Of a stretch of DNA of 64,000 bases, positions 22,083 through 62,285 are shown piece by piece (position 1 is the first letter of the stretch; every line of letters begins with the position of its first letter). The notes beneath the pieces are model-generated. The model saw nothing but the letters and a program-made list of their open reading frames with translations, did not search any database and had not been told where the DNA came from. Origin of the DNA: Rhizobiales bacterium NRL2. Its GTDB lineage: Bacteria; Pseudomonadota; Alphaproteobacteria; Minwuiales; Minwuiaceae. The stretch covers positions 62,001 through 126,000 of the forward strand of contig CP016093.1 in NCBI GenBank assembly GCA_001664005.1, written 5' to 3'. Position numbers and translations under genes: made by a program.

Positions 22083-22085
22083 CGC

Positions 22086-25722: not shown

Positions 25723-25723
25723 C

Positions 25724-26472: not shown

Positions 26473-26486
26473 TGCGCCGCCCCCTC

Positions 26487-27577: not shown

Positions 27578-27639
27578 ACCGCGCTCCCAGGGCCGGGGTG
27601 ATTTGCGGCCATGGTCGAGCTTCCGGCGCGAAGGAATAA

Positions 27640-27658
27640 GGGCGCAGCGGCTACGCCC
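27640..27658 (-). promoter_or_regulatory. Putative late-promoter activator site upstream of lysis operon (Plys-like)
   Basis: GGGCGCAGCGGCTACGCCC, a 19-bp palindrome with one mismatch, 63 bases before the endolysin. It matches the perfect palindrome before protease I at 16 of 19 bases and has the same ATAAGGGCG flank. On the transcribed strand it is followed by TTATTC. See the site at 16628-16646. Confidence 0.7.
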
Positions 27659-27691
27659 CGCCTGAGTCTCTATATTCCCTGAGAATGAAAC

Positions 27692-28258
27692 CTACGGGAG
27701 ATTTTTGCGTCTATCAAACCAAGGGGAGTGAACCCCGCGCATCACCATGCTGGTTCTCTCCACCACTTCGATGAACACCTCGCGAAGGTACTGGGGGTCG
27801 AATTCCCGAAATACAAATGGCTGGATTGGATTGTTTTTCAGGCGTCGGCAGATTTCCACGATCTTTGGATCTGAAAAATCTCTCGCCGATCGCTCGTGTG
27901 CAAACCGATTCCTAATTTCGGAGATTCTTTCGATCGTGTCGCGGGTCTCCTGACCATAGAAGCCAAACGCTTGCAGGACATCAGCCTTGGCCTTCGCACT
28001 TCCAAGAGGGGTGGGACCAGGGCCAGCGATCCTCTTCCAGAGCTTTCTCTTTTTGCTGCGCTCCTGATCGTTGTCTTTCTCGTCAACGACAGTTGCTGAA
28101 AATTGCTTGCGAAGTAGAGCCTCTAGTTCGTCCTCTAGATTGGTAGCAGCCAATATTGCGGCGGCGCGAGGACTCTCTCCTTCCAGTTCGCCGTAATATG
28201 CTTGGATATCGTCGAAGGCGGCTTCGAGCGCGGCTCGTAGCTCGTCGTCGTCATCCAT
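27692..28258 (-). CDS. MltR-family/HEPN-like protein (phage cargo)
   Basis: 188 aa. AAAILAATNLEDELEALLRKQF and LGSAKAKADVLQAFGFYGQETRDTIERISEIRNRFAHE are the conserved parts of the MltR (mannitol repressor) family, an all-helical fold related to HEPN. The RNRFAH motif is the Rx4-6H-type signature of HEPN RNases. Not a Mu core gene; its codon use is less GC-biased. It lies between the Mor-like activator and the lysis promoter, a usual place for cargo. It could be a phage-encoded exclusion or toxin protein; the role is inference. Confidence 0.75.
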   Translation of the reverse strand: MDDDDELRAALEAAFDDIQAYYGELEGESPRAAAILAATNLEDELEALLRKQFSATVVDEKDNDQERSKKRKLWKRIAGPGPTPLGSAKAKADVLQAFGFYGQETRDTIERISEIRNRFAHERSARDFSDPKIVEICRRLKNNPIQPFVFREFDPQYLREVFIEVVERTSMVMRGVHSPWFDRRKNLP

Positions 28259-28332
28259 GCCGTCCTCCTACAACAGCGCAACCATCAGAATTCTGGCCTC
28301 GCGCAGCCCCGATGTCGATTCCAGCGCTACTG

Positions 28333-28686
28333 TCAGACGCGTAGTTCTCCCTGTGCATTCTCAGGATCTCGGCGATCCCATGCCTGCGCCGTCCGCCGGG
28401 ATATGCGCACTGCGTGCCCCGCGCGCTCCTGGCTCCAGCCCTTCGAGCGGAGCCAGCGGTAGATCGACTTCTTCGCCAGCGGGATCTCCAGTCGCTCGTC
28501 GGCCAGTTCTGCGACCACCGCCCGGGCCGCCTCGATCCCGACGATGTCGGCCAAGTCGGATCCCTCGGCCCGCTGGGGCACGCGCAGCCGCGTGCCGCCG
28601 CGCGCCAGCGCAAGCTCCAGCGCCGCCTCGACGCCGGCGGCGTCGGCCACCAGGTTGAGCGTGGCGGGAAGCCGGCCCTCAGCCAT
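28333..28686 (-). CDS. Mor/C-like middle-late transcription activator
   Basis: 117 aa. DLADIVGIEAARAVVAELADERLEIPLAKKSIYRWLRSKGWSQERAGHAVRISRRTAQAWDRR shows the dimerisation block, beta-strand linker and C-terminal helix-turn-helix expected of Mor/C. It follows GemA and precedes the late region as in Mu. It is the best candidate to bind the two 19-bp palindromes ahead of the lysis and protease operons. Overlaps gemA by 8 bases. Confidence 0.75.
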   Translation of the reverse strand: MAEGRLPATLNLVADAAGVEAALELALARGGTRLRVPQRAEGSDLADIVGIEAARAVVAELADERLEIPLAKKSIYRWLRSKGWSQERAGHAVRISRRTAQAWDRRDPENAQGELRV

Positions 28687-29416
28687 GGCCGGCCCTGTCT
28701 TCCGGGATACCCTCGGCCTTGCGGATGCGCCGGCCCAAGGCGGCGATGACGCGGTCCAGCTCCTCGGCCGAGAGTTCGTCCAGCCGCGGCGGGTAGTGGT
28801 CCATCGGCCGCGCGGTGCGCCCGATCGCTGCGGCGAGATAGAACGCGTCGTCGGTCTTCATCTGGCCCAGCGCGTGCAGCCTGCGCCCCTGGGCGGCCAG
28901 CACCGCCAGCCGGTCGCGGATAGCGATGGAGCCCAGGTTCGCTGGCCGGCCGGCAAAGTCCCAGCGCGACCAGGCCACGCCGGCCTCGCGGGCGAGAAAG
29001 TCCTTCAGCCCCTCGACCACCTTCATGGCGTCTTCGCCGTGCTGCCACTCGGCGCGTTCGACGCCGGTGACGTTCCCGGCCCAGGCGCTCAGCGCCTCGT
29101 CGGAGCGGTCGCGGACGACGCCCAGGTGCCAGCCGGAAATCCACAGGGCTCGGATCTTTGAAAGCATGCCACTGGACGCTCGCGCGCCCGGGGTGGCGGA
29201 GGGCCGGCGGGCGCGCGCCTTCTTGACAGACCGGAAGCCCCTTTCCCGGAAGTGCTCGACCAGCTCGACCAGCTGGGCGTCGCTCAACGCGGTTCGGGTA
29301 CGGCACCCGAACTTCGCCTCCAGCAGGTCGCGGAAGTCGTCATCCTCAATTCCCAGCTGCTTGACCGCGATCGCGGACTTGGCCAGCAGCGCCTTCCGGT
29401 TCGCCGAGACGCTCAC
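28679..29416 (-). CDS. gemA: GemA-like regulatory protein (Mu gp16, DUF1018)
   Basis: 245 aa. KSAIAVKQLGIEDDDFRDLLEAKFG and ALSDAQLVELVEHFRERGF, then SKIRALWISGWHLGVV and AWAGNVTGVERAEWQHGEDAMKVVEGLKDFL, are diagnostic for DUF1018/GemA. In Mu this protein alters host gene expression and DNA supercoiling. It ends the early operon. The start overlaps the methyltransferase stop by 4 bases. Confidence 0.9.
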   Translation of the reverse strand: MSVSANRKALLAKSAIAVKQLGIEDDDFRDLLEAKFGCRTRTALSDAQLVELVEHFRERGFRSVKKARARRPSATPGARASSGMLSKIRALWISGWHLGVVRDRSDEALSAWAGNVTGVERAEWQHGEDAMKVVEGLKDFLAREAGVAWSRWDFAGRPANLGSIAIRDRLAVLAAQGRRLHALGQMKTDDAFYLAAAIGRTARPMDHYPPRLDELSAEELDRVIAALGRRIRKAEGIPEDRAGHG

Positions 29417-30138
29417 AGCCCCATCTCCTGCTGCACGGCCGCGGCCTTCTCGGCCCGCTTCTTCGCCCGCTCGGCGGCCTCCTCGGCGCGCCTGGCGGCG
29501 ACCTGTTCAGCGTATGGCGTGTAGTCTTCCGCGCGCTCCAGCTCGGCCCGGCAGGGCGGTATGAACCCGAGCGGCTGCGCCAGGGCGCCGGCTTGCCAGA
29601 CAAACCAGGCATAGGCAGTCGCGCTGGAGGCCTCCGGGTCGAGCATGTTCTTGACGATCGGCACACGCTCGCTGAAAACCCAGACACGGGTCGGCGCTTC
29701 CGGCAGCCACAGTCTCTCGCGGCGCTCGGCGCCCTCCAGTAGCTGCAGCCGGGCGAAGATCGCAACAAACGGGGCCAGCTCCAGCGCGCGCAGGATGAAA
29801 GGCAGCGCCAGCCGGAACGGCGGGTTGGCGATGATCCAGTCGGACGCCGGCAGAACGGGCTTCGGCAGGCCGATGAAGTCGTGAAGGAAGCCGGCCGCCT
29901 CAACAAACGGATAGGGGTGCACGTCGCTGGCGTGCACGGTCTCGAAAAATTCGCTCAACGGCCGCGCCATGTCGCCCTGGCCGCAGCACGGGTCCCAGAC
30001 GGTCTGGCTGGGGTACCAGCTCTCGACGCAGTGGTGGAACAGCGCCCGCGTCGCCCAGGGCGGCGTCGGGAAGAAGTCCAAGGAGTCGTGCGGCTCGCGC
30101 CGCTGCGCCATCACGGCATGGCTGCGGTTCTGGCTCAT
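29413..30138 (-). CDS. Phage DNA adenine methyltransferase-like protein
   Basis: 241 aa. DPCCGQGD (about residues 48-55) is a variant SAM-binding motif I; ASDWIIANPPF (about 102-112) is catalytic motif IV with NPPF, as in N6-adenine MTases. FFPTPPWATRALF near the start is common in phage MTases. No target recognition domain is obvious and the C-terminus is a charged AAERAKKRAEKAAA helix. Likely masks phage DNA against host restriction. Confidence 0.82.
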   Translation of the reverse strand: MSQNRSHAVMAQRREPHDSLDFFPTPPWATRALFHHCVESWYPSQTVWDPCCGQGDMARPLSEFFETVHASDVHPYPFVEAAGFLHDFIGLPKPVLPASDWIIANPPFRLALPFILRALELAPFVAIFARLQLLEGAERRERLWLPEAPTRVWVFSERVPIVKNMLDPEASSATAYAWFVWQAGALAQPLGFIPPCRAELERAEDYTPYAEQVAARRAEEAAERAKKRAEKAAAVQQEMGL

Positions 30139-30139
30139 C

Positions 30140-30409
30140 TCAGCCCTCGATGTCGCAGCGATAGCCGGGCCGCTCGCGCGCCTCGGCGTCCGCCGCCTCG
30201 GCCAGACGCCGCAGGCAGTGCTGGCAGGCTACCTGTTGCGGCAGGATTAGCTCGGCGTTCAGCACCTCGTTGGCCTCCGTCACCGCACGGGTGATCACCT
30301 GCCGGCGTTCAGCGCTGCGCGAGGAGCGCCCGGCCGGTGCGGCCGCCAGCGCGAGGTTCATCATCACGCGGCGCATCTCCTCGACGGTGGTGGTCGGGCG
30401 CGACGGCAT
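30140..30409 (-). CDS. Small early phage protein with Cys pair
   Basis: 89 aa. Begins MPSRPTTTVEEMRRVMMNLALAAAPAG. The C-terminal part carries CQHCLRRLAEAADAEARERPGYRC, a possible metal-binding group. One base separates it from the methyltransferase gene, so it belongs to the early operon. No known family. Confidence 0.65.
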   Translation of the reverse strand: MPSRPTTTVEEMRRVMMNLALAAAPAGRSSRSAERRQVITRAVTEANEVLNAELILPQQVACQHCLRRLAEAADAEARERPGYRCDIEG

Positions 30410-30411
30410 TG

Positions 30412-30783
30412 TCAGCTCCCGAAGTCCGCGGCGATCCGCTGGGCGGCGTCGAGCGCCAGGCCGATCATGGATGCCGGCGCGGTCTCCGCCCGGCGGTCCA
30501 GGTTCTCCGGATCGACCGGGCCGGTGGCGACGCGGGCCAGCGAGCGGCGCAGCGCCTCCAGCGGGATGCCGTGCTGCAGGGCGACCGACGCCATCACGGC
30601 CGCGTCCTCCAGGGCGTGGCGAGTCTCCGAGCCCTCCTTGCCGGCGAAGATGAAGATCTCGCGTAATTCGCCGGTTGCCGGGTCGAAGCCGCAGCTGACA
30701 TCGGCTGAGAGGCCGTTGCGCTCGATGGTCTCGGAGACGGACGGCCGCCGCTCCGGCAGGCGCTTGCGGGCAGCCGCGCTCAT
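30412..30783 (-). CDS. Stand-alone TSCPD-domain protein
   Basis: 123 aa. GELREIFIFAGKEGSETRHALEDAAVMASVALQHGIPLEALRRSLA matches the TSCPD domain otherwise found at the end of B12-dependent ribonucleotide reductases (NrdJ). No reductase domain is present; in phages such single-domain proteins are common and of unknown role. Start taken at 30783 because upstream codons only overlap the next gene and the ATG sits on its stop region. Confidence 0.8.
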   Translation of the reverse strand: MSAAARKRLPERRPSVSETIERNGLSADVSCGFDPATGELREIFIFAGKEGSETRHALEDAAVMASVALQHGIPLEALRRSLARVATGPVDPENLDRRAETAPASMIGLALDAAQRIAADFGS

Positions 30784-31424
30784 GACGCGCTCGCCAGCTC
30801 GGCAGGCGCCCTGGCGCTGGCGAGATCGATGGTCACCGGCGTCCACGGCTCGCGCGGATGGTCGCGCTTGTAGAAGCGGACATACTCGCGGCTGCCCTGG
30901 ATGCGGATGGAGTCGTTCAGCGCCGCGATAGCCTGCCGCCAGCCGTCGTCGTCGATCTCCAGCCGGCGGAGCCCGAACAGCGCCTCGCGGTTGATCCGGC
31001 CCTCCTTGTCGACCTGGAAGGCGTGGTCGACCAGCGTGCGGATCTTCGCGTCCGCGCCCTCCGACCAGGCCGAGATGCAGGCGTCGAACAGCTCCTTGGC
31101 GACCTGCAGCTCGGGCCCGAAGGTGAGCGAGTCCTGCACCTGGACCGAGACCTTCATGCAGCCGTCGAAGGTGGTCAGGGTGACGTTGCCCTTCTTGCCG
31201 CCGCGCGTGACGCCGTACTTCTCGGACAGCAGGTCCATGAAGGTCGCGACGTCGTCGAAGGTGTGGCCGCGGAAGCGCGCGATCTGTGCGTTCAGCTCCT
31301 CGGCATAGCCCAGGATCTTGCGGACCGTCTGGTCCTCCAGGCGCTCGTGGTCCTTGACCATGTCCTCAGGCACCAGTCGGCCCTTCGCGTCCATGATGAA
31401 GCCAGCGGGGATTTCGACATTCAT
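30780..31424 (-). CDS. DUF3164 protein (Mu-like early gene)
   Basis: 214 aa. PAGFIMDAKGRLVPEDMVKDHERLEDQTVRKI, then the GKKGNVTLTTFDGCMKVSVQVQD strand block and ALNDSIRIQGSREYVRFYKRD are typical of DUF3164, a constant early gene in Mu-like phages with no proven function. The start follows 67 non-coding bases. Overlap of 4 bases with the TSCPD gene. Confidence 0.88.
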   Translation of the reverse strand: MNVEIPAGFIMDAKGRLVPEDMVKDHERLEDQTVRKILGYAEELNAQIARFRGHTFDDVATFMDLLSEKYGVTRGGKKGNVTLTTFDGCMKVSVQVQDSLTFGPELQVAKELFDACISAWSEGADAKIRTLVDHAFQVDKEGRINREALFGLRRLEIDDDGWRQAIAALNDSIRIQGSREYVRFYKRDHPREPWTPVTIDLASARAPAELASAS

Positions 31425-31491
31425 TGATCAGCTCCTTGCCCAGATGAGGTGAAGCCAGCGCAGCTGCTGGCGGATAAAGCGCCGGAGGTGG

Positions 31492-31941
31492 CTACGGCGT
31501 CTCATCGGCGAAGCCCTCCCGCAGCAGGTTCAGCGTCTGCCGGATGTCATCGGCCAGGGCCTCCAGCCGGCGGATCGCACGGATGCGCTCGACCCGTTCG
31601 ACGTTGCGCGCCAGCAGGGAGGGAAGATCGGCCAGATCGCTGTCCGACATCAGCGCATCGACGACGGCCGCGACCTCCGGCCTGTCCTCGATCGCGAGTT
31701 CGATCTTGTGGACGGCGTGCAGGATGGTGGTGTGGTCGCGATCAAAGAAGCGGCCGATCTCGGGCATCGACTTCCCCAGCCGACGCCAGATCACGTAGGC
31801 GGCGATCTGGCGGGCCTCGGCGACGTCATGGGCCTTCCGGCTGCTCAGCATGCAGTACAGGTCGACGCCGCAAACGACGGCCGTCCGTTCGGCGATCCGC
31901 ATCATCGGGCTCGCCGGCGCCTGGATCGAAATCGCGTTCAT
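31492..31941 (-). CDS. DnaA domain-IV-like DNA-binding protein
   Basis: 149 aa. AHDVAEARQIAAYVIWRRLGKSMPEIGRFFDRDHTTILHAVHKIE closely follows the DnaA C-terminal DNA-binding domain, including the DHTT signature loop, but no AAA+ domain is present. The C-terminal half is a long charged helix. Might bind phage or host DnaA-box-like sequences. Belongs to the early operon between MuB and DUF3164. Confidence 0.82.
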   Translation of the reverse strand: MNAISIQAPASPMMRIAERTAVVCGVDLYCMLSSRKAHDVAEARQIAAYVIWRRLGKSMPEIGRFFDRDHTTILHAVHKIELAIEDRPEVAAVVDALMSDSDLADLPSLLARNVERVERIRAIRRLEALADDIRQTLNLLREGFADETP

Positions 31942-32276
31942 CTCCGCCCCCTGAAATCTTCCAGACGCACCACTGGCTGCGTCGGGTCGGGCTCGAAGCT
32001 CGCCACCTCGCCGAAGCCGTCCATCTGCTGCGACGCGGCCTCGCGGTAGCCCGCCGGCGGCGGCACTTCGCCCGGCCGGCAGACGCGGACCGTCGAGCCG
32101 CCAAGGGCGTGCTGAACGGGCTGGGCGACCGCCCGCATCAGCTCCAATTCGGCGACCCGTTCGATCGCCTCCTCGAAGCCGAGCAGCGCATACTGAAGCC
32201 GTTCCTCGGTGAGCTCGCCGCTCCGCATCAGGTCGCGGAGCTGGTCGACATGGTGTTGCAGATCAGTGCTGAGCAT
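31938..32276 (-). CDS. Small helical early phage protein
   Basis: 112 aa starting MLSTDLQHHVDQLRDLMRSGELTEERLQYALLGFEEAIERVAELE. N-terminal half is helical; the rest is a proline-rich linker (PGEVPPPAGYR). Overlaps MuB by 14 bases and the DnaA-like gene by 4 bases. No family recognised. Confidence 0.65.
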   Translation of the reverse strand: MLSTDLQHHVDQLRDLMRSGELTEERLQYALLGFEEAIERVAELELMRAVAQPVQHALGGSTVRVCRPGEVPPPAGYREAASQQMDGFGEVASFEPDPTQPVVRLEDFRGRR

Positions 32277-33234
32277 TGTCGCCTCCATCCTCGGAGAGCC
32301 GCTTCCAGGCGGCGCTGACGTGGGTGACGTTGAGCGGCTCCCCCTTGCTGTTGGCAAAGGCGCTCGCGATGCGCAGCACCTTGGTCATGCCGCGGAGCGC
32401 GCCCGGCTTGGTGGCGACCGCCTTCAGCAGCCGGACCGTGTCCGGGTCGGTGACCTTCCAGGCGCCGATCAGTTCGCAGACGTCTTCCGGCCAGGGCTTG
32501 CCTCGCGTGAACCGCATGCCGATCCGGCTGAACAGCTGCGCGAACTCCGGCCGCCGGCCCTCGCCCTGCAGCCGACCGTAGACACTCTCGTTGCCCACCA
32601 GCGCGATACCGACGCCGTAGAGGTCGTGGAGCGAGCGGAGCTGGTCGAGCGCCTTGGAGACCAGGTGCTGGGCTTCGTCGACGATCAGCAGCCCGCCCGT
32701 GTCGCGCACCCGGGCGCCGATGGCCTCGGGAAGCTTCGTCGGGCTCTTCTCGGTCAGCTGCAGCGCCTGGGCGATGACCTGGAGCATCGGATAGACGTTC
32801 GCCGTCGACGGCTGCATGGTCGCCATCCAGACATTCGGGTTCGTCCCGGCGTAATGCCCGCAGGCCGTGGTCTTGCCGATGCCGGCGCCGCCGGCGACGA
32901 CGACGATGTCCGGCCCGATTTGCGCCCATTGCAGGACGTCGGTCACACTCGAAGCGGTCCGGGTTTTCACGAACATCGGCGCCTGCGGCAGGGACGATCG
33001 GGCGCGTTTGCGCTCCTCGCGGGAAGCCAGCCAGAGCTGCACCTTGCCGGCGACATTGTCGTTCCGGCCGGTATAGGTGCCCGACAGCCAGGCGCTCATG
33101 GTCGGTGCGGCAATGCCGGCGTCCCGGGCGGCTGAGGCGTGAGAAAGGTTCTCGTCCGCAATCAGCTTCTTCGCCTCGGCGCGGATCGCCTCGATCTCGG
33201 CGTCTGTAAGGGTCTGGTCCTTGGGAGCGTTCAT
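32263..33234 (-). CDS. MuB-like transposition target ATPase
   Basis: 323 aa. N-terminal HTH (SHASAARDAGIAAPTMSAWL, about 31-50) as in MuB, then an AAA ATPase with Walker A GGAGIGKTT (115-123) and Walker B LLIVDEAQH (182-190), and a C-terminal helical domain. MuB binds target DNA, delivers it to the transposase and gives target immunity. Lies 63 bases downstream of MuA. Confidence 0.93.
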   Translation of the reverse strand: MNAPKDQTLTDAEIEAIRAEAKKLIADENLSHASAARDAGIAAPTMSAWLSGTYTGRNDNVAGKVQLWLASREERKRARSSLPQAPMFVKTRTASSVTDVLQWAQIGPDIVVVAGGAGIGKTTACGHYAGTNPNVWMATMQPSTANVYPMLQVIAQALQLTEKSPTKLPEAIGARVRDTGGLLIVDEAQHLVSKALDQLRSLHDLYGVGIALVGNESVYGRLQGEGRRPEFAQLFSRIGMRFTRGKPWPEDVCELIGAWKVTDPDTVRLLKAVATKPGALRGMTKVLRIASAFANSKGEPLNVTHVSAAWKRLSEDGGDNAQH

Positions 33235-50421: not shown

Positions 50422-52656
50422 TTGAGCCTGCCGGCGGACCACGACCTGTTGCATTCGGCGATCCGCGGCGACGCGCGCCCGACGGGCGTGTTCCGCGTCG
50501 CCGGCGCGACGCTGCGTCCGGTCGTCGTCAGCGACTCCCTCAAGGCCGCACTCGACGTTGCCGACGATGACGCCGTGGCGCAGGCGTTCGAGGATGCCGG
50601 CGGCGTGCCCTGGCTGCAGTCTCACGCCCGCTCCCGCCGTCCGCTGGAGCTGGCCGCAGGCAAGCACCGGCTGGTCATGTCGGCGCGCAGTATCGGTGAC
50701 GACGGCCTGCAGGTCCGCGGCGTCGACGCCGAGCAGGCGGAGGTCTCCAACACCCTGACCGCGGACATCATCGGCGGGCTCTCCAACGACGAGACCGGCG
50801 TCGTCTTCCTCGATCCGGCCGGCCGGGTGCTGGCGGTCAACTACGCCTTCTATCGCTATTTCCCGGCAGTCCCCGGCTTTCCGCGCCTGGGCGAGCCCTT
50901 CGCCGAACTGGTGCGTGGCGCCATCGCCCATGGCTACCTCCCCCAGGCCGCCGGCCGCGAGGAACGCTTCGTGCGGTGGACGGTCGATCACTTCATGGGC
51001 GAGAGCGCGGAGCCGATCAGCGTGCTGTCGGGCGCGGGACGCTGGATCAACACCAGCCGGATGCGGTTCCGCAACGGCGCCGTCGCCATCCTGCTGATCG
51101 ACATGACCGAGATGCGCCAGGAGCTCGAGCAGCTTACGTCCTTCGCGCAGAACACCCGCAACATGGTCTTCGTGCGCGTCGCGGATGGCAGCTCGACCGC
51201 GCGCGTCTGGGGACAGGACGCCAAACGCATCCTGGGCGAGCGCATGGGACGCAGCCGCGTGGAGCTGTCGGGCTGGCGCGCGTGCATCCACCCGGAAGAC
51301 CGCGAACGCTACGAGGCCGCGCTGGCGCAACGTCAGAAGACCGGCGAGGCCTACGAAATGGAGTTCCGCTTCGTCCATCCGGAGGACGGCCGCATCGTGT
51401 GGCTGCTGGAGAACGGCTGGCGCTCGATCGACAGCGTGACCGGCCAGATCTATCTGGACAACTATCTGCTCGACATCACCGAGCGCAAGGAGGCCGACGC
51501 GGAGCTGCGCCACAACGAAGTGCGCTTCCAGGAGTTCGCGGAGATGGCCGCGGACTGGGCCTTCGAGGCCGATGCCGACATGAATCTGACCTGGATCTCG
51601 CAGAACTTCAGCGAGATCAGCGGCATGTCGACCGCCCGTTATGTCGGCCGCTCATGGGCCGAGATCACCGAGGCGGTGCTGCCGGACCTGCCGCGCGACC
51701 AGGTTCGCATGTGGCGTACCCTGCTGAAGACGTGGAGCGAGCGGCAGCCGTTCCGCATCTCGCCGCTGCTGTTCCGTTTTCCGGGCGGCAATGACCGCAT
51801 GGTGGAAGTGGGCGGCACGCCGGTGTTCGACCATCGCGGCCGCTTCGTCGGCCATCGCGGCATCGCCCGCGACGTCACGCCGTTCGTCAGGGCGCGCGAG
51901 GACGCCCGTGCGGCGATGCGGGCCGCCGAGGCTGCGAACCGCGCCAAGTCCGAGTTCATCGCCAACATGAGCCACGAGCTCAGGACGCCGCTGAACGCCA
52001 TCATCGGCTTCGCCCATGTCATGGAGCAGGAGATGTTCGGGCCGATGACGAACGCGCGCTATCACGGCTACGCGGCCGACATCGCCGCCAGCGGCCAGCA
52101 CCTGCTCAGCCTGGTCAACGACGTCCTCGACCTGTCCCGGATCGAGGCCGACCGCGTGAAGGTCGACCGTGAGACCGTGGCCGTTTGCCCGGAGGTCGAC
52201 CGCGTGCTGTCGCTGTTCCGGGAGAGCGCCGGCCGGCGGCGGCTGTACAGCAATGGCTGCAGCGCCTGCACCGTCCAGGCCGACCGGCGGCTGCTGCGGC
52301 AGATGCTGATCAATCTGGTGGGCAACGCGGTGAAGTTCACCGGCGAGGACGGGGAAATCCGCGTGGACGTGACGGTGGAAGGGGACGAACTGCGTCTCAC
52401 CGTCACCGATGACGGCATCGGCATGAACGCCGACGATATCCGCACGGCGCTGGAGCCTTTCGGCCGCGCCGCCGGGGCGGACATCGCCGGCGGCACGGGG
52501 CTCGGCCTGCCCCTGACGCGCAAGCTGGCGGAGCTGCATGGCGGCTCCCTGTCGATCAAGTCGACGCCGCGCAAGGGCACCTCGGTGATGCTGATGCTGC
52601 CCCGGGCGGAGGCCGACGCCGCGCTGACCGGCGGCAGCGCCCGCATGTCCGCCTGA
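50422..52656 (+). CDS. Soluble PAS-domain sensor histidine kinase
   Basis: 744 aa, TTG start with GGAGGAG upstream; no membrane helix. PAS-like domains at about 110-230, 245-355 and 365-490. HisKA has the phospho-acceptor H518 in FIANMSHELRTPLNAIIGF; the ATPase part has NLVGNAVKFT, DDGIGM and GGTGLGLPLTRKL. No receiver domain, so an external regulator is needed. An HPt gene lies 9 bases away on the opposite strand. Confidence 0.92.
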   Translation: MSLPADHDLLHSAIRGDARPTGVFRVAGATLRPVVVSDSLKAALDVADDDAVAQAFEDAGGVPWLQSHARSRRPLELAAGKHRLVMSARSIGDDGLQVRGVDAEQAEVSNTLTADIIGGLSNDETGVVFLDPAGRVLAVNYAFYRYFPAVPGFPRLGEPFAELVRGAIAHGYLPQAAGREERFVRWTVDHFMGESAEPISVLSGAGRWINTSRMRFRNGAVAILLIDMTEMRQELEQLTSFAQNTRNMVFVRVADGSSTARVWGQDAKRILGERMGRSRVELSGWRACIHPEDRERYEAALAQRQKTGEAYEMEFRFVHPEDGRIVWLLENGWRSIDSVTGQIYLDNYLLDITERKEADAELRHNEVRFQEFAEMAADWAFEADADMNLTWISQNFSEISGMSTARYVGRSWAEITEAVLPDLPRDQVRMWRTLLKTWSERQPFRISPLLFRFPGGNDRMVEVGGTPVFDHRGRFVGHRGIARDVTPFVRAREDARAAMRAAEAANRAKSEFIANMSHELRTPLNAIIGFAHVMEQEMFGPMTNARYHGYAADIAASGQHLLSLVNDVLDLSRIEADRVKVDRETVAVCPEVDRVLSLFRESAGRRRLYSNGCSACTVQADRRLLRQMLINLVGNAVKFTGEDGEIRVDVTVEGDELRLTVTDDGIGMNADDIRTALEPFGRAAGADIAGGTGLGLPLTRKLAELHGGSLSIKSTPRKGTSVMLMLPRAEADAALTGGSARMSA

Positions 52657-52665
52657 CGCGGCGGT

Positions 52666-53028
52666 TTAGCCCGAAAGGTAGCGGGCGCGGAAGGCCCGGT
52701 CCGTTTCCCGCCACAGTTCCGGCAGGTTCCTGACCGCCGTCCCCACGGCATCGACCCGGCCATCGCGCGCGTCCCGCTCGATCGCCGCGGCATGGCGGCT
52801 CAGCCGCGGCGCGCCATAGGTCGCCGCGGTGCTCTTGAGGGCGTGCGCCTGAAAGCCGACCGCCCCGATGTCGCGCCCGTCCATGGCCGTCTCGATGGCC
52901 GCCACCCGTTCCCGCGCCTCGTCAAGGAACCCGGCGACCAGAACGCCCACGATATCGCCGGTGTCATCGCCGGCCAGCTCGGCCAGGGTGGATTCGTCCA
53001 GCACGTCGAGGGTATCGGCGGCGTTCAT
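52666..53028 (-). CDS. HPt phosphotransfer protein
   Basis: 120 aa, a single four-helix HPt domain. Phospho-His H62 in FQAHALKSTAATYGA. Carries phosphate between receivers in multi-step phosphorelays. It converges with the PAS kinase gene and overlaps the HCCA-isomerase-like gene by 4 bases. A hybrid kinase and a receiver protein are encoded 7 kb away and are possible partners. Confidence 0.9.
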   Translation of the reverse strand: MNAADTLDVLDESTLAELAGDDTGDIVGVLVAGFLDEARERVAAIETAMDGRDIGAVGFQAHALKSTAATYGAPRLSRHAAAIERDARDGRVDAVGTAVRNLPELWRETDRAFRARYLSG

Positions 53029-54907: not shown

Positions 54908-55027
54908 CCGACCGGAACCGTCCCGTTTCGCACATGCCCCGCCGGCGATTCGTCCGCGCCCACTTCACAGCATCGGGACCGGCCAGTAAAGATGAACGGC
55001 AGGAAGCGGTTTCTGGGGAGGGGCGGC

Positions 55028-56566
55028 ATGGAAGAAGCTCTCTTACTGTCGGGCGAACGGCGCATGACGCGCGAGGAACTCAACGCCAATGTGGCGCGCG
55101 CGGCCGGCGGTTTCGAGAGCCTGGGGGTCGGCGAGGACGATTCCGTCTGTCTGATGCTGCGCAACGACTTTCCCTTCTTCGAGGCGTCCATGGGCGCGAC
55201 CCTGGCCGGGGCCTATGCCGTGCCCATCAACTGGCACAACACCGCCGACGAGACACGCTATATTCTGGAGGACTGCGACGCCCGCGCCCTGGTGATCCAC
55301 GCCGACCTCCTGCCCCGGGTTGCGCACGCCGTGCCGGAAACCTGCCGCGTCTTCGTCGTGGCGACGCCGCCGGAGATCGCCGCCGCCTACGGCCTGGCGC
55401 CCGACAGCCTCGCCGTGCCGGCGGACCGCACCGACTGGGCCGCGTGGCTGGCCGGACAGCCGCCCTTCACCCGGGAACCGGCGACCCAGCGCACCAACAT
55501 GATCTACACCTCCGGCACCACCGGAAACCCGAAGGGCGTCCGCCGCGATCCGGCCGATCTGGAAACCCAGGCGCGGATGAACCAGCTGTTCGAGATCGTC
55601 TTCGGTCTCAGGAACGACCCCTCGATCCGCACCGTGATCACCGGGCCGATGTATCATTCCGCGCCCAACGCCTACGGCCTCTGGTCGGCGAAGCTGGCGG
55701 GGCTCGTGATCCTGCAGCCCCGTTTCGACGCCGAGGAGCTGCTGGCACTGATCGAGGAACACCGGATTACCCACGTCCACATGGTGCCGACCATGTTCGT
55801 GCGCCTGCTGAAACTGCCCGAGACGGTCCGCTCGAAATACGACCTGTCCTCGCTGGAGTTCGTGGTTCACGCCGCCGCCCCCTGTCCGCCGGACGTGAAG
55901 CGCCGGATGATCGAGTGGTGGGGGCCGGTGATCAATGAATACTACGGCGGCACGGAGACGGGCGCGGTGTTCTTCCACACCGCCGAGGAGGCGCTGAAGA
56001 AGCCCGGCACCGTCGGCCGCGCCCTGCCCTGGGCGGATGTCCGCATCGTCGACGACGGCCTGAAGGAGCTGCCGCCGGGCGAGATCGGCGAGGTCTACAT
56101 GCGGCTGATGGGCTGGCCCGACTTCACCTACAACAAGAACGACGCCAAGCGCGCCGAGGTCGGCCTGGAGCATCTGGTGAGCTGCGGCGACGTGGGCTTT
56201 CTGGACGAGGACGGCTACCTGTTCCTCTGCGATCGCAAGCGCGACATGGTCATCTCCGGCGGCGTCAACATCTACCCCGCCGAGATCGAGAACACCCTGA
56301 TCGGCATGCCCGGCGTCAAGGACTGCGCCGTCTTCGGCATCCCCGACGACGAGTATGGCGAGAGCCTGGCCGCCCATGTCCAGCTCGAACCCGGCGGCCC
56401 GGTGAGCGAGGCCGACATCCGCGGCTGGCTCTCGGCGCGGCTGGCGAAGTTCAAGGTGCCGAAGCGGATCGTCTTCGAGGCCGAGCTGCCGCGGCAGGAC
56501 TCGGGCAAGATCTTCAAGCGCAAGCTCCGCGAACCCTATTGGGAGGACGCGGGCCGCCAGATCTGA
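55028..56566 (+). CDS. Acyl-CoA synthetase (AMP-binding), first of tandem pair
   Basis: 512 aa. IYTSGTTGNPKGVRR, YYGGTETG, DVGFLDEDGYLFLCDRKRDMVISGGVNIYPAEIE and the catalytic K in SGKIFKRKLREPYW. Start at 55028 (MEEALLLSGERRM) with GGGGAGG 6 bases upstream. Strong similarity along the whole length to the next gene shows a tandem duplication. Substrate cannot be read from the sequence. Confidence 0.9.
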   Translation: MEEALLLSGERRMTREELNANVARAAGGFESLGVGEDDSVCLMLRNDFPFFEASMGATLAGAYAVPINWHNTADETRYILEDCDARALVIHADLLPRVAHAVPETCRVFVVATPPEIAAAYGLAPDSLAVPADRTDWAAWLAGQPPFTREPATQRTNMIYTSGTTGNPKGVRRDPADLETQARMNQLFEIVFGLRNDPSIRTVITGPMYHSAPNAYGLWSAKLAGLVILQPRFDAEELLALIEEHRITHVHMVPTMFVRLLKLPETVRSKYDLSSLEFVVHAAAPCPPDVKRRMIEWWGPVINEYYGGTETGAVFFHTAEEALKKPGTVGRALPWADVRIVDDGLKELPPGEIGEVYMRLMGWPDFTYNKNDAKRAEVGLEHLVSCGDVGFLDEDGYLFLCDRKRDMVISGGVNIYPAEIENTLIGMPGVKDCAVFGIPDDEYGESLAAHVQLEPGGPVSEADIRGWLSARLAKFKVPKRIVFEAELPRQDSGKIFKRKLREPYWEDAGRQI

Positions 56567-56580
56567 GAGGATTTCCATGT

Positions 56581-56683
56581 GTCATCCCCGATGGCGCCCG
56601 CGCCACTCGGGGATCGTTTCGAAACGGGCGCTCCGGCTGTGGAAGCCGATCCCCGCGCACCGCGGTGCGGCGGCGGGGATGAC
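56581..56683. repeat. 103-bp palindromic repeat with GTCATCCCCG ends
   Basis: Begins GTCATCCCCG and ends CGGGGATGAC, an exact 10-bp inverted repeat. Inside, CGGGGATCG and CGATCCCCG form a second stem around the GTTTCGAAAC palindrome. Such GTCATCCCCG-ended units are dispersed in many alphaproteobacterial genomes. It fills the gap between the two acyl-CoA synthetase genes, which explains the spurious open frame upstream of the second gene. Confidence 0.7.
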
Positions 56684-56702
56684 GAAGAAGGACAAGCAAG
56701 GC

Positions 56703-58244
56703 ATGAACCCAGAACCGGGCGTGATCATCAGCGGCGACCGGCAACGGGCGCAGGAGGCCCGGGCGGCCAACGCGGCCCGCATGGCCAGGGCGCTCCACGA
56801 CAGCGGCGTCCGCGCCGACGACTGCGTGGCGATCTACCTGCGCAACGACTTCCCCTTCTTCGAGACCTCTGCCGCCTGCACCCTGATCGGGGCCTACGCC
56901 ACGCCGATCAACTGGCACTACACCGCCGAAGAAGCCGGTTACATCCTGCGCGACTGCGACGCGAAGGTGGTGGTGATCCATTCCGACCTGCTGGCGAACA
57001 TCCGCACCGCCATCCCCGAGGGCGTCACCGTCGTCGCCGTGCCGACGCCGCCGGAGATCGCCGCCGCCTATGGCGTGAGCCCGCCCGCCAGCCTGCCCCA
57101 GGGCGTCGTCGCCTATGACGACTTCATCGCCGGCCTGGAGCCCTGGACCGATCCGCCGCCGGCCAGCCGGGGCACGATGATCTACACCTCCGGCACCACG
57201 GGCCACCCGAAGGGTGTCCGCCGCGACCCGCTGGACGAGGACGCCCAGGCCCGTCAGGCCGAGCAGATCTTCGAGGGCTTCGGCATCCCCGCCGACTGTT
57301 CGGCCGTCCGCACGGTGATGACCGGGCCGATGTACCATTCCGCGCCCAACGCCTACGGTCTCGCCGCCGCGCGCAATGGCGCCTTCATCTACCTGCAGGC
57401 GCGCTTCGACGCCGAGGATCTGCTGCGGATCGTCCAGGACTACCGCATCACCCACATGCACGTGGTGCCGACCATGTTCGTGCGGTTGCTGAGGCTGCCC
57501 GAGGAAGTGCGGGCGAAATACGACGTCTCCAGCCTGGTTCACGTCATCCACGGCGCCGCGCCCTGCCCGCCCGAGGCCAAGCGGCGCATGATCGAGTGGT
57601 GGGGGCCGGTGATCTACGAATATTACGGCTCGACCGAGAACGGCCTCGTCACCGTCGTGACCTCGAAGATGGCGACCGAAAAGCCGGGCACCGTCGGCAA
57701 GCCGATCTCCAGCAACCACATCCGCATACTGGACGACGATCACAACGATCTGCCGCCCGGCGAGATCGGCGAGGTCTACATCTGGCGGCCCAACCGCACC
57801 GACTTCACCTACAACAAGCGCGACGACGCCCGCCGGGAGATCGACGTCGAGGGCTTCCTGACCAATGGCGACATGGGCTGGCTGGACGAGGACGGCTGCC
57901 TGTTCCTGGCCGACCGCAAGAACGACATGGTCATTTCTGGCGGCGTGAACATCTATCCGGCGGAGATCGAGAAGGCGCTGGTCGGCATGCCGGGCGTCAA
58001 GGACTGCGCCGTCTTCGGCATTCCCGACGCCGAGTTCGGCGAGGCGCTGGCGGCACATGTGGAGCGGGCCGATCCGTCGGTCGGCGAGGACGCGGTGAAA
58101 CGCTACCTGGCCCAGCATGTCGCCCGCTACAAGATCCCGCGCACCATCGTCTTCGCCGACAGCCTGCCGCGCGAGGATTCCGGCAAGATCTTCAAGCGCA
58201 AGCTCCGCGAGCCCTACTGGGAAGGCATGCCGCGCAGGATCTAG
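56703..58244 (+). CDS. Acyl-CoA synthetase (AMP-binding), second of tandem pair
   Basis: 513 aa. Same motifs as the first copy: IYTSGTTGHPKGVRR, YYGSTENG, GWLDEDGCLFLADRKNDMVISGGVNIYPAEIE and SGKIFKRKLREPYW. Start at 56703 (MNPEPGVIISGDRQ); codons upstream belong to the palindromic repeat. Copies differ in the substrate-facing region (for example YYGSTENG against YYGGTETG), so they may use different acids. Confidence 0.9.
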   Translation: MNPEPGVIISGDRQRAQEARAANAARMARALHDSGVRADDCVAIYLRNDFPFFETSAACTLIGAYATPINWHYTAEEAGYILRDCDAKVVVIHSDLLANIRTAIPEGVTVVAVPTPPEIAAAYGVSPPASLPQGVVAYDDFIAGLEPWTDPPPASRGTMIYTSGTTGHPKGVRRDPLDEDAQARQAEQIFEGFGIPADCSAVRTVMTGPMYHSAPNAYGLAAARNGAFIYLQARFDAEDLLRIVQDYRITHMHVVPTMFVRLLRLPEEVRAKYDVSSLVHVIHGAAPCPPEAKRRMIEWWGPVIYEYYGSTENGLVTVVTSKMATEKPGTVGKPISSNHIRILDDDHNDLPPGEIGEVYIWRPNRTDFTYNKRDDARREIDVEGFLTNGDMGWLDEDGCLFLADRKNDMVISGGVNIYPAEIEKALVGMPGVKDCAVFGIPDAEFGEALAAHVERADPSVGEDAVKRYLAQHVARYKIPRTIVFADSLPREDSGKIFKRKLREPYWEGMPRRI

Positions 58245-58298: not shown

Positions 58299-59552
58299 CT
58301 AGAGCAGCGCCTCCTCGAAGGGGAAGCGGCTGAGCAATTCGGTGCCGGTTTCGGTGACCAGAAGCTGCTGCTCCAGCTTGACGCCCTCACCGCCCGCGGC
58401 CTCGCCGATGAAGCTCTCGACGCAGAGCGTCATGCCGGGTTCGATCACGCCGTCATAGCCGGCGTCGGGGAAATCGGCGCGGTGGTAGAGATAGGGGTAC
58501 TCCCCGGTCATGCCGCAGCCGTGCGCCGACAGGTAATAGCGGTGAGCGTGATAGCGCTCGGGAATGTCCCAGGCCCGCTCGGCGTAGTCGCGGAAGCTCA
58601 TTCCGGGGCGGATGATGGACATGTTGTGCTGCACCTGCTCCAGCGCCGTGCGGTAGAGGGTCCGCTGAGTCCCGCTCGGCCGGTCCGGTCCGGCGTGGAA
58701 GGTGCGTGAGAAGTCCGAATAGTAGCCGTGGCAGCCGACCACGTCGGCGTCCAGCGCGATCAGTTCGTTCGCGCCGATGACCTTGGTCCCGGCTTCCTGA
58801 AACCAGGGATTGGTCCGCTCGCCGGAGTTCAGCAGCCGGGTCTCGCAATAGTCGGCGTTGCGCGCGATCACACCGCGCTGCAGCACAGACCAGAGTTCGT
58901 TTTCGGTGATACCGGGGCGGATGGCTTCCCGCATCTCCGCCATCGCCGCCTCCGTGGCGCGCAGCGAGGCGACGACGCATTTGACCTCCTCGGCCGACTT
59001 GATCGCCCGCGCCCGCTCCACCGGCGCCTGGGCGTCAACGAGGCGGAGCCCCTCGGTCGCCAGCGCCAGGGCCGTGCCGGCGTTGAGCCGCTCCAGCCCC
59101 ACGACCGGGTCCGGGCCGCAGAGCTCGCGCAGCAGGGCCGCCATCTCCGCCGCCCAGCGCCGCTCCCGCGCGGCGATGTCCTCGCCCGCGGCGACATAGC
59201 TGGCCGTCATCGCCGGGCGCACCTCGTCGACGGTGTCGTAGCCTTCCGCGAGGTGCGCGGCGCCGGTGAACTCGAACAGGATCGACCGGTCCGCCGTGAG
59301 CACCAGATAGCGCGAGGGTGCGTTGCGGGAGGTGAAGACCTGCATGTTCCGCGTACCGGTGGCGTAGCGGATGTTGACGGAATCGGAGAGGATCAGGGCC
59401 TGGATGTCCCGCCGCGCCATCTCGGCGCGCACCCGGCCCAGCCTGTAGCGGCGGACGGCGGCAAGGTCGATGCCGGCGCTTTCCGGCGCCAGATCGAGCA
59501 GCTTCAGATCGGGATGGACGGCGCGGTCGCGGTGCCAGTCGAGTTCAGCCAT
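58299..59552 (-). CDS. M24-fold protein of the DddP (DMSP lyase) type
   Basis: 417 aa. The N-terminal creatinase-like domain has VNIRYATGTRNMQVF; then ETRLLNSGERTNPWFQEAG. Candidate metal ligands D268, D270, D280, H344, E379, E394 keep exactly the spacing I recall for DddP (D295, D297, D307, H371, E406, E421), and Y339 fits DddP Y366. The proposed catalytic base D377 would be G350 here, followed by E351. So the fold is DddP-like, but DMSP cleavage is uncertain; another M24-type hydrolase activity is possible. Converges with the acyl-CoA synthetase pair. Confidence 0.78.
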   Translation of the reverse strand: MAELDWHRDRAVHPDLKLLDLAPESAGIDLAAVRRYRLGRVRAEMARRDIQALILSDSVNIRYATGTRNMQVFTSRNAPSRYLVLTADRSILFEFTGAAHLAEGYDTVDEVRPAMTASYVAAGEDIAARERRWAAEMAALLRELCGPDPVVGLERLNAGTALALATEGLRLVDAQAPVERARAIKSAEEVKCVVASLRATEAAMAEMREAIRPGITENELWSVLQRGVIARNADYCETRLLNSGERTNPWFQEAGTKVIGANELIALDADVVGCHGYYSDFSRTFHAGPDRPSGTQRTLYRTALEQVQHNMSIIRPGMSFRDYAERAWDIPERYHAHRYYLSAHGCGMTGEYPYLYHRADFPDAGYDGVIEPGMTLCVESFIGEAAGGEGVKLEQQLLVTETGTELLSRFPFEEALL

Positions 59553-59614: not shown

Positions 59615-59995
59615 TCAGGCGGCGGCGGGGTTCGCGGCCAGACAGGCCTCGATCTTGCGCAGCAGGCGCGGCATGTCGACGGGCTTGGTGTCGAAGTCGC
59701 TGCAGCCGACCTGCACGCTGCGCTCCCGGTCGCTGGCCAGCGCATGGGCGGTCAGCGCGATCACCGGAATGCCGGCGGTCTTCGGGTTGGCCTTGATACG
59801 GCGGGTCGCCTCCCAGCCGTCCATCTCGCCCAGGGCGATATCCATCAGGATCAGGTCGGGCAGTTCCTGCTCCGCCGCGGCGACGCCGCTCGGGCCGTCG
59901 ATGGCGAACACCACCGAATAGCCGCGGCGTTCCAGCCGCCGGCCCAGCATGTCGCGGTTCATCTCGTTGTCTTCGACCAGCAGGATGTCAGCCAT
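59615..59995 (-). CDS. Single-domain response regulator (CheY-like)
   Basis: 126 aa, one receiver domain. Acidic pocket E8/D9, phospho-acceptor D52 in DLILMDIALGEMDG, T82 in LTAHA and K104 in FDTKPVD. No output domain. It overlaps the hybrid kinase gene by 8 bases, so it is co-made with it, probably as a diffusible phosphate carrier. Confidence 0.92.
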   Translation of the reverse strand: MADILLVEDNEMNRDMLGRRLERRGYSVVFAIDGPSGVAAAEQELPDLILMDIALGEMDGWEATRRIKANPKTAGIPVIALTAHALASDRERSVQVGCSDFDTKPVDMPRLLRKIEACLAANPAAA

Positions 59996-62285
59996 TCGCG
60001 GCCTCCCTGAGCGGTGCGCCGTCCGGTTCCAGGATGGACAGCGCGGTGTTCGAGATGTACTCGCCGGACTCGTCGGCGTCGACGGCGAGGGCGAAATCGG
60101 GCAGGGCGAGCCGGTCGTCGGCGTCGTAGGCGGCGCCGAGCAGCGCCAGCAGCGACAGGCCGTCGAAGTCCGCCAGGGCGGCCGCGAAGGCGTCGAAGGC
60201 GGGGTTCGGGGCCGCGCTGTCGACGATCACCAGCGCGGGCCGCGCCTGCTGGGCGCGGGTCAGCGCGATGCCGAAATCGGGCACGGCGACGACGTTCCAG
60301 CCCTGGCTGCGCAGCAGCCCTGCGGCCTCGCGGCCGGCGTCGCCGTCATCGTCGACCAGCAGCACATAGTCGCGGCGCGGCGCGTCATTGGCGCGGCCGA
60401 CGGCCTCCAGCAGCGCCTCGCGGTCGACCGGTTTCACAAGATAGTCGGCGGCCCCCAGTTCGAAGCCCTGCCGCCGGTCGTCGACGATGGTCTGCACGAT
60501 GACCGGGATGTCGCGCGTGGCAGCGTCGGTGCCGAGCTGTTCCAGCAGCCGCCAGCCGTCGGTCGCGGGCGCGGCGACATCGAGCACGATCACGTCGGGC
60601 CGGGCCTCGCCCGCCAGCTGGCGCGCCTCGCGGGCATCGCCGCAGATGAGAACCCTGTAGTTCTCCTTCTTCAGGATGCGTTCCATCAGTTCGAGCGCCG
60701 GGGGGTCGTGGTCGATGATCAGGACACTGTCGCCCGTCTCGCCGGTTTCGTCGGCGATGGCCCGGTGTTCGGAGACGGCGCGGATGCTGGTGGTTTCCAG
60801 CGCGATGTCGCGGCGATCGGCATCGCTGGCGACCGACTGGCCGGCGGGCTGGTTGGCGGGCAGGACGATGGTGAACACCGTGCCCTCGCCCAGCACGCTT
60901 TCGACGGTGATGTCGCCGCCCATCAGGCGGCAGAGCTTCTGGCTGAGCGACAGGCCGAGGCCGGTGCCGCCGAAGCGCGACGAGATCGAAGGCGCGGCCT
61001 GGCTGAAATTCTTGAACAGGTGGTCGATCTGTTCCTGCGCGATGCCGATGCCGGTGTCGGTGACGGCGATACGGAACCAGTCGCGGCCGGCCACATTCTC
61101 CCGCCGGGCGGTCAGGGTCACGCGTCCGTTCTGGGTGAACTTGGCCGCGTTCGAAAGCAGGTTGAGCAGGGCCTGGCGCAGCTTGGTGACATCGCACTCC
61201 AGCGTGCCCAGCTCGCGCTCGCGCTCCACCACCAGTTCGTTGGCGTTCTTGGCGACGAGCTGACGGCAGGTAGCGGCGACTTCGTCGATGAAATCGCCGA
61301 GTTCGACCTCCTCGGTGTAGAGCTCCATCTTGCCGGCCTCGATCTTGGAGAGATCGAGCACCTCGGTGACCAGCGCCAGCAGATGCTTGCCGGCGGCGTT
61401 GATCTTCTTCAGGTCGGCGGAATCCTCGCCGCGGCCATCGATCTCCGCGTCTTCCAGCAGCATCTCGGAATAGCCGATGACGGCGTTCAGCGGCGTGCGC
61501 AGCTCGTGGCTCATCTTGGCCAGGAACTCGGACTTGGCGCCATTGGCGCGCTCGGCGTCGTCCTTGGCCTCGACCAGCTGGGACATGGTCGCGCGGTGAC
61601 GCTGGATCTCCGCCAGCAGCTCCGACTGCGAGTCGACCACATTGGCGTAGTAGACCGCCATCATGGAGACGTAGATCATGGCGCAGATGGTCGAGACGAT
61701 GCCGACCGGCACCAGGTTCTCCGCCGCCATGTGCACGGGGAAGCCGCCGCCGAACAGGTAGACGGCGTAGAACGCCGCCAGGCCGGAGCCCGTCATGCCG
61801 AAGACGAAATAGCGCGTGGTGTAGCTGGAGCCGAGATAGAAGAAGGCCAGCAGCGGTACGATCAGCAGCCAGACCAGGAAGGGCGAGCTGACGCCGCCAT
61901 AATGGTAGGAGCCCCACAGGATCGCGAACACCAGATCCAGAACCGAAACCAGCGCCAGGACCGTATAGGCCTTCTGCGGATCGAAGAAGCGGAAGCACAG
62001 CTTCAGCGCCCAGGGAAAGGCCCAGAACAGCGAGATCGAGGCGGCCAGGATCCAGACATGCGGCGACGGCGCGGGGTCGAGCAGCAGCAGCACTGCCGTG
62101 ATGGTGTGGCCCAGCAGCGGGCCCAGCGTGTGGCTGATCATGAACATCCGCATGCGCTGCGCGATGGGCCGGTCGGCCAGCACGGATTCCGGAATGAAGG
62201 AATCGATGAAGCGGTAGAGCGGCGATTTCTTCGGCGCGGCCTGCATGTCGGCTCTCTCGGCGGTTTCACTCATCTCCGACGACAT
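59988..62285 (-). CDS. Membrane hybrid sensor histidine kinase with two receiver domains
   Basis: 765 aa. Six predicted TM helices between about 48 and 215, no clear periplasmic sensor. HisKA H260 in FLAKMSHELRTPLNAVIGY; ATPase NLLSNAAKFT, DTGIGI and GGTGLGLSLSQKL. Receiver 1 about 520-635 (VIVLDVAAP), receiver 2 about 645-755 (LVDDDGDAG, VIVDSAAP). Works with the overlapping response regulator; an HPt protein is encoded 7 kb away. Confidence 0.92.
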   Translation of the reverse strand: MSSEMSETAERADMQAAPKKSPLYRFIDSFIPESVLADRPIAQRMRMFMISHTLGPLLGHTITAVLLLLDPAPSPHVWILAASISLFWAFPWALKLCFRFFDPQKAYTVLALVSVLDLVFAILWGSYHYGGVSSPFLVWLLIVPLLAFFYLGSSYTTRYFVFGMTGSGLAAFYAVYLFGGGFPVHMAAENLVPVGIVSTICAMIYVSMMAVYYANVVDSQSELLAEIQRHRATMSQLVEAKDDAERANGAKSEFLAKMSHELRTPLNAVIGYSEMLLEDAEIDGRGEDSADLKKINAAGKHLLALVTEVLDLSKIEAGKMELYTEEVELGDFIDEVAATCRQLVAKNANELVVERERELGTLECDVTKLRQALLNLLSNAAKFTQNGRVTLTARRENVAGRDWFRIAVTDTGIGIAQEQIDHLFKNFSQAAPSISSRFGGTGLGLSLSQKLCRLMGGDITVESVLGEGTVFTIVLPANQPAGQSVASDADRRDIALETTSIRAVSEHRAIADETGETGDSVLIIDHDPPALELMERILKKENYRVLICGDAREARQLAGEARPDVIVLDVAAPATDGWRLLEQLGTDAATRDIPVIVQTIVDDRRQGFELGAADYLVKPVDREALLEAVGRANDAPRRDYVLLVDDDGDAGREAAGLLRSQGWNVVAVPDFGIALTRAQQARPALVIVDSAAPNPAFDAFAAALADFDGLSLLALLGAAYDADDRLALPDFALAVDADESGEYISNTALSILEPDGAPLREAANG

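Follow-up and report, generated by a model that had tools for sequence, protein, structure and literature searches.

In trees built from sequence alignments, a 417-aa M24 protein of Rhizobiales bacterium NRL2, encoded in a 64,000-nt stretch of contig CP016093.1 (here the window), falls in a deep Gly lineage next to the Asp-type lineage of DddP. As judged from alignment and a structure model, the protein keeps the DddP fold, the six metal ligands, and the Tyr366 equivalent, and it combines a conserved Gly with shifted site residues and with neither Asp377 nor the peptidase histidines. Gene context in some genomes suggests a role of this lineage in the catabolism of small choline/glycine-betaine-type quaternary-ammonium solutes.

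Fold and active-site residues

The gene and the two codons at issue are as follows.

58299..59552, minus strand: Gly-type DddP-like M24 gene; 417 aa, ATG start, no internal stop
58500..58505, minus strand: G350-E351 codons in the motif HGCGMTGEYP, computed from the ORF coordinates

The window protein scores 111.7 bits with Peptidase_M24 (PF00557; gathering cutoff, 23) and 39.1 bits with Creatinase_N. The NCBI DddP model NF043017 gives 301.6 bits against an equivalog cutoff of 600, in a match that starts only at position 50; the DoeA model TIGR02993 gives 40.2 bits against a cutoff of 613, and NF038259 gives 48.8 bits. The best solved relatives are four DddP sequences (E values of 2e-66 to 8e-64), followed by Xaa-Pro dipeptidases from 2e-16, and identity to DddP is 30 to 35%. 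An AlphaFold2 model from a 45-row alignment (pLDDT 90.3, pTM 0.88; residues 1 to 21 below pLDDT 50) ranked DddP entries first in Foldseek, with a TM of 0.89 by query. VIA-align superposed the model on four DddP entries with Z of 46.5 to 46.7 and an rmsd of 1.9 to 2.1 over 404 to 405 residues. The Z of 46.7 to RdDddP, against about 35 for the next M24 entries (34.4 for DoeA and 34.2 for creatinase), bears out the DddP fold assigned in a preliminary description of this DNA, and the active-site change would therefore sit on an otherwise similar scaffold.

The metal ligands of the window protein are D268, D270, D280, H344, E379, and E394. In phmmer alignments against 4rzy, 4s00, and 4s01, they correspond to RlDddP D295, D297, D307, H371, E406, and E421, and Y339 corresponds to Y366, all at the constant offset of 27 that had been read from the sequence earlier. 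At the same offset, G350 stands for D377, the replacement already proposed, and E351 for E378. The N-domain offset is 22 because five residues are inserted in DddP. The DddP numbering used earlier is confirmed because the chain sequences of 4s01 and 4s00, titled D377N and Y366A, differ at exactly those places. The Glu adjoining G350, to which the preliminary description drew attention, is indeed present but is not special: it equals DddP E378, which is Glu in 87/87 ingroup rows of the rooted tree described below and in 13/13 DddP rows. Glu351 had been considered as a replacement base and was ruled out, given its invariance in the ingroup rows and in the 3 outgroup rows aligned at this site. 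DddP and the Asp-type rows never vary at this Glu, so it is no compensating residue. The window protein also lacks both M24 peptidase histidines, their positions being F251 and G350. According to section 9 of one review (PMC5395565), these histidines bind substrate, and DddP has Phe and Asp instead. F251 also sits where DoeA outgroup rows have His.

Phylogeny of the glycine and aspartate types

Scanning a collection of genome contigs yielded 594 candidate stretches, 589 of them confirmed, and the best 80 loci were used, a sample that leans to close relatives. Thirty-two of these best 80 of 589 loci encode orthologues at 64 to 81% identity, with HG[CV]GM[TS]GEYP in 32/32, in Roseovarius, Aliiruegeria, Oricola, Pararhizobium, Nisaea, Kiloniella, Halomonas, Burkholderia, Nocardiopsis, and actinobacterial MAGs. 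At this range of identity, the query clade thus spreads over Alphaproteobacteria, Gammaproteobacteria, Burkholderia, and Actinomycetota. Site 350 is Gly in 72 and Asp in 8 of the best 80 of 589 loci, a ratio biased toward the query. Alphaproteobacterial DddP and DddP-like proteins were added to the scan loci for the site and tree comparisons. The first tree comprised 112 of 140 rows, 28 having been omitted as near-duplicates, as fragments, as the query's own copy, or, in one case, for a stop in the frame; the second was thinned and supplemented with nine outgroup M24 rows, for 96 rows in total (87 ingroup). Both are of the quick kind, with SH-aLRT support only, and the groups submitted to the AU test were picked after tree inspection.

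Site 350 follows the groups closely when Gly rows L077 and L135 and other-M24 rows L002 and L003 are left aside. It is Gly in 38/38 query-clade rows, in 9/9 Pseudomonas/Halomonadaceae rows, in every row of two further groups (4/4 and 6/6), and in 3/3 Bacillaceae rows, and it is Asp in 13/13 rows over the NCBI DddP cutoff and in 34/35 other Asp-type rows. The constancy across the 38 query-clade sequences argues that Gly350 is more than a chance substitution. On the rooted tree, site 350 changes twice over the 87 ingroup rows (47 Gly and 40 Asp), and the Tyr366 equivalent is Tyr in 87/87. The outgroup does not polarize the Gly/Asp change, its rows showing His, Trp, or a gap at site 350.

The Asp-type rows (41, including the later Gly row L098) form one branch, with an unstarred SH-aLRT value of 94. 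Constraining the 46 Gly rows (without L098) to one clade improved the fit over that of the free tree by 20.7 log units, with a p-AU of 0.828, and the AU test neither proves nor rejects a single Gly-type clade. A clade joining the query clade and true DddP was rejected (p-AU 8.7e-9), and both trees and the AU test put the window protein outside the clade of proteins over the DddP cutoff. To the question of inside or beside DddP, phylogeny thus answers beside, and the protein belongs to a separate deep lineage rather than being a DddP that has lost a residue.

Two side observations concern the distribution of the types. L098 (5107-6273) is the sole Gly protein among Asp-type rows, and it also differs from its sister L101 at sites 76, 235, and 278; these joint differences, with n = 1, are suggestive of a linked change. 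Two alphaproteobacterial genomes (G036 and G042) each encode four DddP-like proteins at E ≤ 1e-30, those of G036 being of both Gly and Asp types.

Beyond site 350, the pocket differs between the lineages. Eight sites (73, 76, 235, 278, 348, 349, 350, and 357) read WHWCLCDY in the 13 DddP rows, and the annotated DddP of Paracoccus yeei departs from this set at the first site. The 22 rows that represent the query clade on the 96-row tree have FRYYMTGH, once FRYYMSGH. The window protein carries the lineage markers F73, R76, Y235, Y278, and H357, the equivalence of F73 with DddP W95 being one of alignment only. Arg at site 76 occurs in 47/47 Gly rows versus 4/40 Asp rows, Tyr or Phe at 235 in 46/47 versus 0/40, Tyr at 278 in 42/47 versus 0/40, Phe or Tyr at 73 in 45/47 versus 3/40, and His at 357 in 40/47 versus 2/40. 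These residues are co-inherited, and the tree holds only two independent Gly/Asp contrasts; sign tests therefore cannot reach significance, and covariation was dropped as proof. The residue pattern suggests that Gly350 is part of a retooled active site.

Gene neighborhoods

Four further genes of the window lie next to the M24 gene or close to it.

54992..56566, plus strand: second acyl-CoA synthetase, PRK12406 subfamily over cutoff; its one solved relative at E ≤ 1e-60 is FadD13
56577..58244, plus strand: acyl-CoA synthetase, PRK12406 subfamily over cutoff; convergent with the M24 gene and 54 nt from it
59615..59995, minus strand: single-domain response regulator, 62 nt upstream of the M24 gene
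59988..62285, minus strand: hybrid histidine kinase, next gene upstream of the response regulator

The two synthetases had been put forward as possible activators of acrylate or a related acid. Both genes are present, but they are not conserved partners. We compared stretches of 13 to 18 kb from six relatives (G001, G002, G003, G004, G006, and G049), those of G001 and G006 extending on one side for only about 2 kb beyond the gene. G004, whose protein is 98% identical, is the sole one that shares the synthetases, response regulator, and kinase, and no window neighbor, these or any other, was found in the other five stretches. A functional link through acrylate activation was rejected on this account and because both synthetases belong to a broad subfamily.

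Two other members of the genus, L141 and L142, show a different arrangement, with TAXI-TRAP transporter genes upstream on the gene's strand. A ThDP enzyme is encoded directly upstream in L141 (PRK08199, 621 bits; cutoff, 539), L144, and L145, a count that leaves out a putative ThDP gene between the TRAP gene and the M24 gene in L142. The L141 cluster is flanked by a divergent OpuAC gene (166.3 bits). The host genome, one 4.70-Mb contig, has its ThDP, TAXI, TRAP, and OpuAC homologues clustered at 3.21 to 3.22 Mb and the M24 gene at 0.12 Mb, which speaks against a betaine-related function. It also encodes two MTTB-family and two OpuAC genes.

Elsewhere in the window, a run of small genes on the minus strand (20895-33234) looks like a prophage or related element. 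Solved phage portal proteins are matched (E, 5.6e-74) by its 532-aa protein encoded at 22086-23684, and the 395-aa neighbor of this portal-like protein had no match in the PDB. GC content falls to 0.608 at 16 to 20 kb. At 50422-53028, a histidine-kinase-like gene (HELRTPLNAI motif by eye) stands beside one for a 120-aa HPt-like protein (LuxU-like; E, 9.8e-8); the response regulator and the hybrid kinase of the M24 locus are some 6 kb away, and these genes may possibly form a phosphorelay set with them.

Betaine-handling genes appear beside some orthologues. The 110 neighbor proteins (≤2 genes away, ≥100 aa; 31 loci) include LysR (10), DAO (4), OpuAC (3), GCV_T (3), MTTB (2), and SBP_bac_5 (2). 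In Oricola indica (L031, 8376-13835), the M24 gene lies in a tight operon between genes for an MTTB protein, whose gene overlaps it by 4 nt, and a DAO/GcvT protein, after a 4-nt gap. This MTTB protein matches the solved glycine betaine methyltransferase 9yce at 1.1e-93. L034 has the order MTTB-M24 gene-SBP_bac_5, and both MTTB proteins score far below the TMA methyltransferase cutoff (266.3 in L031 and 273.9 in L034 versus 525). A single 5.7-kb gammaproteobacterial MAG contig (L053) shows the order BetA-BetB-M24 gene, with BetA over both its NCBI cutoffs (815.3 bits; cutoff, 732.1) and BetB over that of PRK13252 (720.8 bits; cutoff, 593) but below that of a second betaine-aldehyde model (649.0 versus 668.6). 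L050 and L059 have OpuAC as the adjoining gene; in L046, it comes second, with a porin gene in between. In L176, a BCCT gene adjoins the M24 gene (530.6 bits to the glycine betaine BCCT model, below its cutoff of 650). A supplementary set of six loci comprises one with BCCT, one with DctPQM TRAP genes, and four with nothing diagnostic; one of the six (L175), whose contig equals that of L051 in length, is probably a repeat.

A betaine-type marker, loose ones included, lies within three genes in 8/31 orthologue loci, and 23/31 have none. Markers are enriched near the gene in the query clade (12/172 near versus 4/312 far; Fisher p 0.002), in a post hoc comparison for which they were picked from the same loci and generic aldehyde dehydrogenases were counted. 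At other Gly loci, pooled markers show no enrichment (12/229 near versus 20/414 far; p 0.85), the far set consisting mainly of generic aldehyde dehydrogenases. Taken by itself, OpuAC is found at 4/172 near versus 0/312 far positions in the query clade, one of the four (L050, third gene) belonging with a second DddP-like gene, and at 12/229 positions within three genes versus 0/414 further away in 39 other Gly loci. The eight Asp-type loci have markers at 0/42 near and 1/51 far positions.

The sister Gly groups have neighborhoods of their own. The order in Halomonadaceae is oxygenase-like gene-M24-OpuAC, Pseudomonas has the same with Opp genes, and the rhizobial group has a GlxA regulator and isochorismatase as neighbors. 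The oxygenase-like gene gives a weak Pfam HalD match (39.8 bits; cutoff, 26), and a comparison of its product with the PDB gave no meaningful match. In Halomonas sp. ML-15 (L050, 10001-16175), there are two Gly-type DddP-like genes in facing orientation, and a separate OpuAC gene follows each of them. The second is preceded by an oxygenase-like gene and encodes HGVGMNGEYP, the motif of the Halomonadaceae group. Two plasmids carry Asp-type DddP-like M24 genes near an aromatic-ring-hydroxylating dioxygenase annotation: one from Paraburkholderia (L147), with GlxA and LysR regulators, and one from Rhodobacteraceae (L148), with a ThDP decarboxylase and a 2-hydroxy-3-oxopropionate reductase nearby.

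Putative function and relation to known enzymes

The earlier alternative of a changed mechanism or a different substrate finds support in its general form only. The substrate is probably other than DMSP because the lineage is separate, D377 is absent, and betaine-handling neighbors occur in some genomes. Our tentative proposal, to which we give a little less than an even chance, is a putative metal-dependent enzyme of quaternary-ammonium (betaine-type) catabolism that probably cleaves a C-N bond. By analogy with DddP, the metal site would hold the carboxylate of the substrate, perhaps with help from R76, and the aromatic residues F73, Y235, W250, Y278, and Y339 would hold the onium group; the substrate might be a quaternary-ammonium acid or alcohol. 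Either Tyr339 or the lineage-specific His357 could act as the base in place of Asp377. The choice of a C-N bond as the one cleaved is a guess guided by the neighbor genes.

An ordinary M24 hydrolase of the prolidase or aminopeptidase P kind, for which Opp or TRAP systems would import a dipeptide-like or amide substrate, is unlikely but deserves some weight. The Peptidase_M24 and Creatinase_N matches fit it, as does the annotation of plasmid-borne homologues as "Xaa-Pro peptidase family protein" (others are annotated as "aminopeptidase P family protein"). Opp-type genes adjoin the gene in L034 and in Pseudomonas relatives, and TRAP genes occur in L141, L142, and L177. However, Phe251 and Gly350 replace both substrate-binding histidines, and RlDddP, which also lacks the two, is described as having no measurable Val-Pro activity (PMC5395565).

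That the window protein is still a DMSP (or DMSOP) lyase, with Tyr339 or His357 serving as the base for Asp377, is rather improbable. DddP proteins are its closest solved relatives, with the six ligands and Tyr366 kept, and betaine importers can carry DMSP too, which counts for this alternative and against the betaine reading. In the account of Hehemann et al. (2014; PMC4108388), Asp377 is called invariant in DddP lyases and is the favored catalytic base, with Tyr366 named as an alternative base. Against a lyase of DMSP stand the presence of D377 with the whole WHWCLCDY set in 13/13 proteins over the NCBI DddP cutoff, the subthreshold score and position outside the DddP clade, and BetA-BetB and MTTB beside orthologues, which point to nitrogen compounds.

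An ectoine hydrolase or creatinase is very hard to credit: both are M24-fold enzymes of small solutes, but their family scores fall far below that of DddP, five DoeA-type rows have Tyr at a metal-His site where the window protein has His, and a DoeA-like protein (586.4 bits, below the cutoff of 613) is encoded elsewhere in the host genome. Equally remote is a degenerate, catalytically dead DddP, which would explain the lack of a proposed catalytic residue but not the retention of ligands, Tyr, and Gly in every query-clade row across phyla, a pattern unlike decay.

More specific, and quite doubtful at present, is the idea that the Gly lineage comprises metal-dependent C-N lyases, nitrogen counterparts of DMSP lyase with Tyr339 or His357 as the base, which might split a betaine or a related onium acid, yielding, for instance, trimethylamine and acrylate from beta-alanine betaine. 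If so, the sulfur chemistry of DddP would be one branch of a wider onium-cleaving family. Should the betaine link hold, the turnover of quaternary-ammonium compounds by marine and soil bacteria would include one more candidate step, and the Oricola indica operon is a good genetic test case for such a betaine pathway.

The fold and family are already known. We recognized no description of the Gly-type lineage among the papers listed for DddP, M24 peptidases, and betaines, a literature with subscription papers mostly outside its scope. As a marker gene for the production of DMS, DddP is in wide use, and DddP-like proteins below the DddP cutoff are common: in a set of 337 alphaproteobacterial genomes, the DddP model has matches at E ≤ 1e-60 in 70, and its cutoff is passed in 13. 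A BLAST threshold of E < 1e-70 served to assign DddP in one review (PMC5395565). Two-sequence BLASTP of the window protein against an annotated DddP gives 5e-79, a value that varies with database size; therefore, loose cutoffs may count the Gly lineage among DMS producers. The fingerprint of sites 377, 76, and 235 offers a simple filter, and the Gly lineage is a natural comparison for the role of Asp377 in the DddP pocket.

Among known systems, DoeA and creatinase share the M24 fold (Z about 34) and small-solute substrates with the window protein but have much lower family scores, and DoeA rows lack the metal His and lie in the tree outgroup. M24 peptidases (prolidase and aminopeptidase P) have the pita-bread fold (Z about 29 to 35), M24-type metal ligands, and an HG.G...E.P-type motif in common with it; they differ in their substrate-binding histidines, replaced here by F251 and G350, and in having five ligands rather than six, the distinction stated for DddP in the review (PMC5395565). 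Asp-type DddP-like proteins below the cutoff (such as L011, L015, and L012) are of the same overall family and have the same ligands, yet their residue at site 377 is Asp and their pocket has the W/H/W/C set; two of them, L011 and L015, come from the window's own family and genus. DddP itself (RlDddP 4rzy/4s00/4s01 and RdDddP 4b28; NF043017) is closest, sharing the fold over 404 to 405 residues at about 2 Å, the six metal ligands, Tyr366, the NPWF motif, and Glu378. The window protein, at about half the NCBI cutoff score and outside the DddP clade, departs from it in lacking Asp377 and, by alignment, in the changes of W95 to F73, H98 to R76, W262 to Y235, C305 to Y278, and Y384 to H357.
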